Shown here: one piece after another, positions 15,965 through 19,603 of the stretch
Layout of the letters: every line of letters begins with the position of its first letter
Position numbering within the stretch: the stretch's first letter is position 1
NCBI GenBank assembly: GCA_017592665.1
Contig: JAGFNW010000001.1
Coordinates: 744,001-808,000, forward strand
Source: Streptosporangiaceae bacterium NEAU-GS5
GTDB lineage: Bacteria; Actinomycetota; Actinomycetes; Streptosporangiales; Streptosporangiaceae
Reading direction: 5' to 3'
DNA length: 64,000 nt
Made by a program: the position numbers and the translations under genes
The notes under the pieces: generated by a model
The model's input: the letters and a program-made list of their open reading frames with translations, nothing else
The model's database searches: none
What the model was told of the DNA's origin: nothing

Positions 15965-16900
15965 TCATGCTTTGGTCGCGTCGGAGACCGCGTTACGGTC
16001 GAGGTCGGGCTCCAGATAGATCACGCGGGCGATCGGCACGGCGTCTCTGACGCGCTGCTCGGCCTCGTCGATGCCACGCGCCACCTCGGCGGCGGTGTCG
16101 TCGTGCCGGACCGCGATCTTCGCGGCGACCAGCAGCTCTTCGGGACCGAGGTGGAGGGTGCGCATGTGGATGACCCGCTCGACCTCGGGCGCGCCCTCCA
16201 GCGCGGCGCAGATGTCGTCTTCGACTTCCGGCGCCGCGCTTTCGCCGATCAGCAACGACTTGGTCTCGATGGCGAGGATGACCGCGATCACCGCGAGCAG
16301 CGCGCCGATCATCAGCGTGCCGATGCCATCCCACGTGCCGTCACCGCTGACGACGGCCATCGTGACGCCGAACAGCGCGAAAACCAGGCCCAGCAGCGCG
16401 CCGAGGTCCTCAAGCAGGACCACCGGCAGCTCGGGCGCCTTCGCCCGGCGGATGAACGCGACCCACGAGTGCGACCCCTTCAAAGGCCGGGACTCACGAA
16501 TGGCCGTGCGGAACGAGAAGCCCTCGGCGACGATCGCGAAGATCAGCACTCCGAACGCCCACTGCGGCGACTCCACCGCATGCGGGTGCATGACCTTCTC
16601 GACGCCCTCATACAGGGAGAACGCCGCGCCGATCGTGAACAGGACGACCGCCACGACGAACGCGTAGAAGTAGCGCTCACGGCCGTAGCCGAACGGGTGC
16701 TTGCGGTCGCTGCGCTGCGTGGCGCGCCGCCCGCCGAGGATGAGCAACCCCTGATTGCCCGAGTCGGCGACGGAGTGAATCGACTCGGCGAGCATCGACG
16801 ACGAGCCTGTGAACAGGAACGCTATGAACTTCGCCACAGCGATCGCCAGGTTCGCGGCAAGCGCCGCGACGATCGCTCTGGTGCCACCACCGGTGCTCAT
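15965..16900 (-). CDS. Cation diffusion facilitator family transporter (ZnT9-like)
   Basis: 311 residues with about five to six membrane helices between residues 10 and 215 and a cytosolic C-terminal domain. The first metal-site motif H-S-V-A-D is at 42-46. In helix 5 the canonical H/D-x-x-x-D is replaced by L-L-E-D-L-G-A, the pattern of the ZnT9-like branch, so zinc/proton exchange is less certain than in classical CDF proteins. The C-terminal region (about 225-290) matches the dimerising metal-sensing domain. It overlaps the SIS gene by 4 bp, forming a leftward operon with the phosphosugar genes. Confidence 0.88.
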   Translation of the reverse strand: MSTGGGTRAIVAALAANLAIAVAKFIAFLFTGSSSMLAESIHSVADSGNQGLLILGGRRATQRSDRKHPFGYGRERYFYAFVVAVVLFTIGAAFSLYEGVEKVMHPHAVESPQWAFGVLIFAIVAEGFSFRTAIRESRPLKGSHSWVAFIRRAKAPELPVVLLEDLGALLGLVFALFGVTMAVVSGDGTWDGIGTLMIGALLAVIAVILAIETKSLLIGESAAPEVEDDICAALEGAPEVERVIHMRTLHLGPEELLVAAKIAVRHDDTAAEVARGIDEAEQRVRDAVPIARVIYLEPDLDRNAVSDATKA

Positions 16901-17997
16901 GGGGAGATCCTGGCCTTGAGTTCCGCGATTGCCGACATGGGGGTTGGATCGACACCATAGCCGAGGGCCAGATAAACACTCGCATAGTCGGCCATGCAGA
17001 CCAGCGACGCCAGCCGTTCGAGCGGGTGCTCGCCCTCCGCGAGCACCTCCGACACCGGCACGCCACGGTCTTCGGCGAGCCGCACCGACACCTCGCGGCG
17101 GCGCGCCACCTGGGGATGCTCCTCCACGTCGCGGAGCACGAACAGGCGCAGCCGGGTCTGTGCCTCATCGGCGAAGACGTCGCGCTCGGCGAGGGCGCCG
17201 TCGAGCGCCTCGACCTGATTGTGGTTGACCTCGGGGAGCTCACCCCAGATGGCCGGATATTTGCCGTTCTCATTGAGCTGGCAGGCAAGCCGCTGAGCGG
17301 CGACGGCGGCGATCGGCGAGGACCCCCAGACCATCGGCAGGCTCTCGGCGATCTCGGCCGCCAGCGTCTTGCCCGGGTTGATGAACGACTCGCTCGACGG
17401 GCGGCAGCGGTGCGCCACATCCTCCAGCCGCTTGGCGACCGCCTCGAAGACATCCTCACCGGCGTCGGTGACGCCCATGGCGGTCGTCACGACCAGCGGC
17501 GGCACAGCGAGGCTCCACAGCGTCGCGCGCGACTGGCCGGCGGCCGGAGTGACCGCCACATAGGGCGCGCCTCCCTGGACGGCCAGCGACTGCAGCGGCG
17601 AGTCGGGCGCGCCGACGCCGAGGAACGCGCATCCTCGGCGCACACCCTCGGTGGCCACGGCCAGCGTCTCTTCCGTGGCGCCCGACGACGACACGGCGAT
17701 CAGCAGGTCGGCCGCGCCGACCCAGCCGGGCAGCCGATAGCCCCTTACGACGATCACCGGCACCACGCTGCACAGGGCTTCGAGAACGTTTCCGGCGACC
17801 CCGGAGGCGCCCATGCCGACGACGACGATCGCCCGCGGCCTGAACTGCGCGACGGCCCGCGCCGCCCCGGCCTCGACCGCGCTCCGATAGGCCATGCGCA
17901 CCTGAGCCGCAGACGAGGCGACCAAGGGAAGCATGCCGGCGGAGTCACCGGACTGGAGATAGGCCTGGTCGTCGAGCCGGTCGGGCTCCCAGATCAT
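16897..17997 (-). CDS. SIS-domain phosphoglucose/phosphomannose isomerase
   Basis: 366 residues. An N-terminal SIS domain has the sugar-phosphate motif V-V-G-M-G-A-S-G at about 58-65 and S-S-S-G-A-T-E-E-T at about 103-111. The C-terminal domain contains [16 protein letters not shown], the active-site region (Glu, His) of bifunctional PGI/PMI enzymes. It should interconvert fructose-6-phosphate with mannose- or glucose-6-phosphate. Mycobacterial genomes carry a related gene (Rv3256c) between manA and manB, upstream of the same DUF3499-WhiB2-FbiA neighbours, which supports a role in GDP-mannose supply. Confidence 0.87.
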
Positions 17998-18167
17998 GCT
18001 TTGCGCGCCTCGTCGACGAGCAGCACCGGGATGTCGTCGCGCACCGGATAGACCAGGGCGCAGGACTCGTTGGTGCAGGCCAGCTCGTCAGCGCCGGGCG
18101 ACACGCGCAGCGGCGACTTGCACGCCGGGCAGGCCAGGATCTCCAGGAGCCAGTCGTCGATCTTCAC
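17994..18167 (-). CDS. Trm112/UPF0434-family small protein
   Basis: 57 residues from GTG 18167, giving the usual family start [14 protein letters not shown]. Two zinc-binding cysteine pairs are visible (C-P-A-C near 14-17 and C-x5-C near 34-40), and the C-terminus has D-D-I-P-V-L-L. In eukaryotes and archaea Trm112 activates methyltransferases; bacterial members are less studied. It overlaps the SIS gene start by 4 bp. A longer frame to 18227 exists but its extra residues are not family-like. Confidence 0.85.
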
Positions 18168-18230
18168 GGATTCACCAATCTTGCTTCGGCCAGTGGCTTC
18201 GAACGTAACATCTCCCGCGACCCCCACGCG

Positions 18231-19028
18231 TCACGGGACGCGGCCTGTGGATGACCCGAGCCCTGTGGACGACGCGAGCAGCTCCTCCACGAAGGCAGCG
18301 GTCTCCTGCCAGCCCTCGACCGCGACGCACTCGACCCCCATCGCCAGGACCGGGTAGTCGTTGCCGCCCTCGTCGAGGCGGTCGCCGACGAACAGAATGT
18401 CGGTCAGGGTCAGCCCGAGCCGCTCCAGCAGACGGCTGATGCCGTACGCCTTGTCGACGCCCTTGTGCGTGATGTCGACAGACGTGGAGCCACCGCTGCG
18501 GACCTCAAGGTCGGGCAGGCGCTCGGACACGTACGCGCACAACCGGCGCCGTTTCGAGCCGTCGGGATCCCAGGCGTATTTGGCGTCCGGCGGAGCCTGC
18601 TGCCCGAGCGCGGAAAAGGTGATCTGACTGCCGCGGTCCTCGACGATCTCGCCCCACGTCTGGTCGGCCCACAGGCCGAGCTCCTTGGCCCCACGGGTGA
18701 GGATCTCGATGATCTCGGCCTTCTCCGGCTCGCTGAAATCCTCGGCGTACACAAGCTCCCACCCCCCGCCCGCCCACCGGTAGTAGCGGGTGCCACAGGT
18801 CGGCATGAGGTGCAGCCGGGCACGGAGGTCGTCGGTGATCGGCAGATGGCGCAGCACCTGCGCCTCGAACTGGGCGAACTGCCCGCCCGATATCACGCAC
18901 ACCTCGACGCGGCCGAGCAGGCGCGCGAGCAGCTCCGCCATCCGCGGCTCGATCTGGGATTTGGAAACGGCGAGTGTGTCGTCCAGATCGAAGGCGACCA
19001 GGGCAAGCGCCGAGAGATTGTGGTTGAT
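18231..19028 (-). CDS. HAD-superfamily (IIB) phosphomannomutase-like protein, apparent AUC start
   Basis: 265 residues if translation begins at ATC 19028. HAD motif I (F-D-L-D-D-T-L-A) is at about 15-22, motif II I-S-G-G-Q at about 47-51, the motif III lysine in H-K-G-V-D-K-A-Y-G near 185, and motif IV G-D-R-L-D-E-G-G-N-D near 208-217, resembling eukaryotic-type phosphomannomutase. The first ATG in frame (18941) would delete motif I. No ATG, GTG or TTG lies between the upstream TAG stop and motif I, but a perfect AGGAG sits 6 nt before ATC AAC CAC. It probably converts mannose-6-phosphate to mannose-1-phosphate, taking the place held by manB in mycobacteria. Confidence 0.8.
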   Translation of the reverse strand: MNHNLSALALVAFDLDDTLAVSKSQIEPRMAELLARLLGRVEVCVISGGQFAQFEAQVLRHLPITDDLRARLHLMPTCGTRYYRWAGGGWELVYAEDFSEPEKAEIIEILTRGAKELGLWADQTWGEIVEDRGSQITFSALGQQAPPDAKYAWDPDGSKRRRLCAYVSERLPDLEVRSGGSTSVDITHKGVDKAYGISRLLERLGLTLTDILFVGDRLDEGGNDYPVLAMGVECVAVEGWQETAAFVEELLASSTGLGSSTGRVP

Positions 19029-19068
19029 CGAGCACTCCTAGCGGGTTGGGCACGTGCCCCGACTCTAT

Positions 19069-19434
19069 CTAGGCGTTCCGCTCGCCCGGCGCCGATTTCA
19101 GCACGCGCAGATGCCCTCTGCGGCCGACCTCCACCGCCGCGCCCGTCGGCTCGCCGGCCGGGGGTGCCGGCCGCGCGGCTTCACGCACGGCGTTGGCCAG
19201 CGCTTCGAGGTCGTCGCCTGAGGGTGTCACGGCCTCGGATGGAAGCCGGACGACCTCCCAGCCGCGCGGGGCCGTGAGCCGCTCCGCGTGCTCCGCGCAC
19301 AGGTCGTAACAGTGCGGCTCGACGTACGTCGCCAGGGGGCCGAGCACAGCGGTCGAATCGGCGTAGACGTACGTGAGCGTGAAGACGGCAGGCTGCCTGC
19401 AGGCGGTACGGGAACAGCTGCGGACGGGGCTCAC
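19069..19434 (-). CDS. DUF3499 protein (zinc-ribbon-like)
   Basis: 121 residues from GTG 19434. Four cysteines in two pairs (C7 and C12; C42 and C46, the latter followed by A-E-H) suggest a metal-binding fold, with T-Y-V-Y-A-D-S-T-A-V between. This is the conserved core of DUF3499, found across actinobacteria next to the zincin-like gene and WhiB2 (Rv3258c in Mycobacterium). The tail after about residue 70 is variable and charged. Function unknown. It is probably read as the first gene of a leftward series towards the HAD gene 40 bp downstream. Confidence 0.87.
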   Translation of the reverse strand: MSPVRSCSRTACRQPAVFTLTYVYADSTAVLGPLATYVEPHCYDLCAEHAERLTAPRGWEVVRLPSEAVTPSGDDLEALANAVREAARPAPPAGEPTGAAVEVGRRGHLRVLKSAPGERNA

Positions 19435-19440
19435 GGAGGG

Positions 19441-19446
19441 ACCGTA
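19441..19446 (-). promoter_or_regulatory. Candidate -10 element, leaderless DUF3499 transcript
   Basis: Minus-strand TACGGT ends 6 nt before GTG 19434, the spacing of leaderless actinobacterial promoters. This supports the chosen start over longer upstream extensions of the frame. Confidence 0.4.
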
Positions 19447-19603
19447 TCTGGTCCGCGTGCACTGCGCTACCACCGCTCGAGCGTGTCGCCACATTTCGGA
19501 CACCAACGAGCCTCCGGCAGGTGCTCTAAGCTGCAGGGTGAGCGAGCGCGGCGAGCGGCCATCCGGCACAGCGGCTTGCGAACGCCGCCGACGAAGGAGG
19601 CCA

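Follow-up and report, generated by a model that had tools for sequence, protein, structure and literature searches.

The gene for a HAD-type sugar-phosphate mutase in the soil actinobacterium Streptosporangiaceae bacterium NEAU-GS5 very probably begins translation at AUC, and its closest relatives carry the similarly unconventional AUU at the same position. The gene was found on the minus strand of the window, by which we mean the whole stretch of 64,000 nucleotides that was analyzed. Its start region contains the following features.

18231..19028, minus strand: HAD-IIB phosphomannomutase/alpha-phosphoglucomutase-like coding sequence, 265 codons, from ATC at 19028 to TGA at 18231
19026..19028, minus strand: proposed AUC start codon, from comparison with relatives (AUU in six Nonomuraea)
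19035..19039, minus strand: Shine-Dalgarno (SD) sequence AGGAG, 6 nt from the ATC and, in Nonomuraea, 5 nt from the ATT
19038..19040, minus strand: in-frame TAG, read directly, which excludes any start farther upstream
18981..18989, minus strand: HAD motif I (D14-L-D16), absent from the product if the start is ATG 18941
18939..18941, minus strand: first in-frame ATG, codon 30, located 3′ of the catalytic motif

After the TAG, the minus-strand frame reads GAG TGC TCG, then ATC (19028) AAC CAC, AAT CTC TCG GCG CTT GCC, CTG GTC, and GCC TTC GAT CTG GAC GAC, and eventually reaches CCG CGG ATG (18941). Direct reading found no ATG, GTG, or TTG from the TAG (19040-19038) to that ATG, and both motif I aspartates, Asp14 (18989-18987) and Asp16 (18983-18981), were encoded 5′ of it. 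The sequence-only reading had described the same arrangement, with HAD motif I upstream of ATG 18941, the interval from the in-frame TAG to the motif free of ATG, GTG, and TTG, and AGGAG 6 nt 5′ of ATC 19028; all three points were borne out, as DLDDT precedes codon 30 and AGGAG occupies 19039-19035. The frequency of the SD-ATY motif was rejected as sole evidence for a start, because AGGAG-N4-8-ATY had 11 occurrences in the window where 8.5 would be expected, a count not above chance. What exceeds chance is the position of the motif at the 5′ end of the HAD open reading frame and its retention in seven species. Since the motif is common by itself, the case rests on comparison.

To find orthologues, a scan of genome contigs was combined with a family-wide search of 343 genomes, which returned orthologues at approximately 80% identity in six Nonomuraea species: N. 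ceibae (G144, L022), SBT364 (G178, L002), G32 (G182, L003), G183, N. wenchangensis (G189, L004), and G147. An order-level search for more examples found no genomes beyond those of the family. All six orthologues shared the invariant sequence TAGGAG(C/T)TCCGATTAA(C/T)CGC, with ATT at the position of the ATC in the window, and the SD sequence preceded AT(T/C) by a spacer of 5 to 6 nt in all seven species. AUC was seen solely in the window genome, and none of the six Nonomuraea had ATG there. Moreover, the frame in N. ceibae (L022/L027) stayed open for 279 nt upstream, as far as a TGA, and contained no ATG, GTG, or TTG, such that a noncanonical start is required in that genome too. The Nonomuraea ATT is located exactly 9 codons 5′ of the F in FDLDDT, and the same column is occupied by ATG, GTG, or TTG in relatives belonging to Microbacteriaceae, to Micromonospora, and to a further genus of the window organism's own family (L005, L007-L011, L013-L015, L017-L020, L033, and L034); a few relatives (L006, L012, L016, and L021) had an N terminus of another length. 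A three-codon insertion is present in the window protein, whose start is placed by the SD sequence. ATT makes up approximately 3% of the isoleucine codons in neighboring genes, so an invariant ATT would be unexpected for an internal isoleucine. Finally, pN/pS in the window-Nonomuraea comparisons was 0.27 to 0.30 for codons 2 to 29 versus 0.25 to 0.38 for the rest of the gene, and thus coding constraint extends up to the proposed start. We conclude that true AUC initiation at 19028 is the best explanation for the start of the HAD gene, and that the gene resembles infC, pcnB, and sigR in having no usable canonical start, an SD sequence at normal spacing, and a codon that is kept noncanonical.

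The leader upstream of the SD sequence contains two further features that bear on the start.

19062..19067, minus strand: -10-like box TAGAGT, recognized by eye and putative
19051..19053, minus strand: GTG 8 nt 3′ of the -10-like box, a possible leaderless start, out of the HAD frame in the window

One alternative is that the transcript begins at or near GTG 19053 and that this GTG serves as the start codon, which in the window would call for a subsequent frameshift. The spacing from the -10-like box would suit such a start, and leaderless initiation at GTG is frequent in mycobacteria and occurs also in actinobacteria (PMC4633059). By eye, the box is kept as TA(C/G/A)(A/G)GT in the Nonomuraea HAD leaders and resembles the TAGGCT of ManB leaders. 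In L003, L030, and L032, one extra leader base places the GTG in frame with the ATT, 30 nt upstream, and the G182/G183 lineage therefore has a canonical, possibly leaderless, start available, which counts against the AUC reading. In the window, however, the GTG lies 25 nt 5′ of the ATC in a different frame; in L004 and L029 it is 29 nt upstream in a frame that ends at the TAG; and in L002 and L022 the position is CTG. Thus, the leader frame varies among relatives while the SD sequence and AT(T/C) stay conserved, and a leaderless start at the GTG is improbable. A sigma-70 promoter and terminator scan of the leader found neither, nor a -35/-10 pair, Rfam gave no match on the gene strand of the leader, and folding revealed no structure consistent among leaders. 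For some leaders, folding predicted a largely paired SD sequence, which counts against an AUC/AUU start. Separately, a 182-codon open frame (19053-18505, minus strand) overlaps the HAD gene in a different frame and would compete with the AUC start if GTG 19053 were a leaderless start.

Initiation just 5′ of the catalytic strand, at CTG (codon 10) or GTC (codon 11), is very unlikely. Codon 10 is retained as CTG nearly always in the Nonomuraea relatives and GTC is a proven start in Streptomyces sigR (PMC5472188), but neither codon has an SD sequence in front, the AGGAG being at least 33 nt away in the window, and the relatives from other families start at the ATT column, 9 codons before the F. 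Moreover, CTG was not enriched among selected starts in Mycobacterium smegmatis (PMC4633059). The sequence-only reading had offered a single-base change, a sequencing error, and true AUC initiation as readings that would each fit and had proposed checking the codon in close relatives; that check, with ATT behind the same TAGGAG in six Nonomuraea, upheld the last option and not the first two. One G-to-C change would give ATC, yet the finding of ATT, never ATG, in six independent assemblies argues strongly against both a sequencing error and an isolated loss of ATG as the origin of the ATC. The open reading frame is also intact and under purifying selection, and the HAD gene is the sole occupant of the slot otherwise held by ManB, so there is scarcely any chance that the gene is misread or decaying in the window strain. 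A short noncatalytic protein from ATG 18941, the first canonical start and the one listed by a purely mechanical ORF caller, is exceedingly improbable, as it would lack D14 and D16, which were invariant in 20 of 20 aligned homologues, and as codons 2 to 29 are under coding constraint.

The predicted product is a HAD-type phosphomannomutase/alpha-phosphoglucomutase of the eukaryotic-PMM-like kind. Profile searches matched HAD-IIB (TIGR01484, 1.6e-21, residues 10-237) and PMM (PF03332, 3.6e-8), and the HAD catalytic residues D14, D16, S47, K193, G215-D216, and N223-D224 were all present and invariant in the homologues. The closest solved structure, the HAD-type alpha-phosphoglucomutase of Lactococcus lactis (PDB 4bnd; E 4e-51, residues 10-253), matched over the full length and shares the HAD core motifs, and the next structural matches were eukaryotic phosphomannomutases. 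The cap motif differs, being S-V-D in the window protein, T-I-N in 4bnd, and S-F-D in eukaryotic phosphomannomutases; the likeness to the last suggests that the preferred substrate may be mannose. Assignment to the ManB-type alpha-D-phosphohexomutases (PGM_PMM family) was rejected, as the Pfam matches were to HAD/PMM only and the gene shares the locus of ManB, not its family. The earlier description as phosphomannomutase-like was therefore right in kind, with the refinements that the nearest solved relative is an alpha-phosphoglucomutase and that the gene replaces the phosphohexomutase ManB.

Weak starts of the AUC/AUU kind are known mainly from the gene for IF3, and very few bacterial genes besides infC have, to our knowledge, a conserved start other than ATG, GTG, or TTG. 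In the window's genome, infC itself (G000:C117:239446, L064) has an ATC start behind GGAGG (GGAGGATCC), and among the relatives read its start was ATC in nearly all and ATT in one. A pattern search with GGGCTNNNAACCC found one initiator-like anticodon loop in the genome, CAU in the form GGGCTCATAACCC. An alternative initiator tRNA was rejected because the other GGGCTNNNAACCC matches lacked GGGCTCATAACCC and occurred at about the rate of a reversed-pattern control, such that they look like chance. In the favored reading, the HAD-gene mRNA has a short leader in which AGGAG places AUC 19028 into the ribosomal P site; the ordinary CAU initiator fMet-tRNA would then pair at two of three bases, and the protein would begin with fMet. 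In M. smegmatis with an SD sequence, ATT accounted for 9.8%, ATG for 20.5%, and ATC for 0.2% of the selected start codons/reads; ATT initiates well there, and ATC is weak yet above background when an SD sequence is present (PMC4633059). The weakness of AUC relative to AUU in that assay counts against the AUC reading, as does the fact that the genome of the window is the lone one seen with AUC. IF3 represses AUU/AUC starts of the infC type (PMC5472188), and since it disfavors these codons, expression of the HAD gene would be low and inverse to IF3 activity, as for infC. Judged by codon class, IF3 probably limits the gene to low expression.

The start type is already known from infC, pcnB, and sigR, but a member that encodes a metabolic enzyme and occurs naturally in both AUU and AUC versions appears to be undescribed, and a literature search found no description of the HAD gene or its start. 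Like infC (AUU, AUC, or AUA), the gene has an SD-led AUC/AUU start kept among relatives, but infC is autoregulated by IF3, whereas the HAD product is a sugar-phosphate mutase without a known IF3 link. Streptomyces sigR is likewise an actinobacterial gene with a conserved noncanonical start behind an SD sequence and is repressed by IF3 (infC being ATC in Streptomyces), but it has a GTC codon, a stronger SD sequence (AGGAGGTG), a regulatory product, and an experimentally proven start (PMC5472188). In Staphylococcus aureus, cvfC1 (AUU) and ccpN (AUA) have expression-lowering noncanonical starts conserved within a lineage; they differ in phylum and functions, have extended SD sequences, and were mapped by Ribo-Ret, and in poor medium, expression from such conserved AUU/AUA starts was approximately 10% of that from AUG (PMC13009471). 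Escherichia coli pcnB (AUU) shares the expression-lowering noncanonical start but belongs to another phylum and has another function. Reconstructed switches from AUG to AUU are very rare, at 1 of 61,358 ancestral AUG starts (PMC5622118). The HAD gene is thus a metabolic enzyme gene that offers natural AUU and AUC versions for comparison. ORF callers restricted to ATG, GTG, and TTG will misplace the start of infC and, for the HAD gene, would either choose a start beyond the active site or include leader sequence in the coding region.

The HAD gene sits among the following neighbors.

19069..19530, minus strand: DUF3499 gene, upstream neighbor, 5′ boundary provisional
17994..18227, minus strand: Trm112-like protein gene, downstream neighbor
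16897..17997, minus strand: SIS-domain phosphoglucose/phosphomannose isomerase gene, by profile match

All 27 other genomes of the family that carry DUF3499 (25 from Nonomuraea, the remainder from two other genera; L099 included) had ManB in the slot that follows this gene and normally precedes Trm112. In the genome of the window and in the six Nonomuraea with AUU, the slot following DUF3499 was occupied by the HAD gene. A genome-wide search of these seven AUU/AUC genomes found no ManB orthologue, the best matches being approximately 31% identical versus 80 to 100% in three ManB-type controls. Four PGM_PMM proteins were present in the window genome and, named by sequence resemblance, were like GlmM, two phosphoglucomutases, and a nucleotidyltransferase fusion. 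We conclude that the HAD mutase displaced the unrelated phosphohexomutase ManB in place. The locus documents this replacement and backs the function call, as displacement in place beside a phosphoglucose/phosphomannose isomerase gene supports a phosphohexomutase role for the HAD gene. In a small tree of DUF3499 and a neighboring metallopeptidase-like gene, HAD carriers fell in more than one place, with weak support, suggesting that a cassette probably moved or that ManB was probably displaced more than once; gene-by-gene identities were compatible with either. A more tentative idea, which we consider possible but rather doubtful, is that AUU/AUC is a selected dosage control, responsive to IF3, on a central sugar mutase that has its own leader and belongs to a cassette that replaced ManB more than once. 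If so, hexose-phosphate flow would answer to translation-initiation capacity.

Two of the Nonomuraea loci departed from the usual gene order. In G147 (L046, 8900-13600), the usual Trm112-SIS-CDF-AhcY genes were missing 3′ of the HAD gene, and a glutamine-amidotransferase-like ORF and an RHS-repeat-like protein were encoded instead. In G183 (L048, 5750-6750), an inositol-monophosphatase-like fragment was located between the HAD gene and Trm112.
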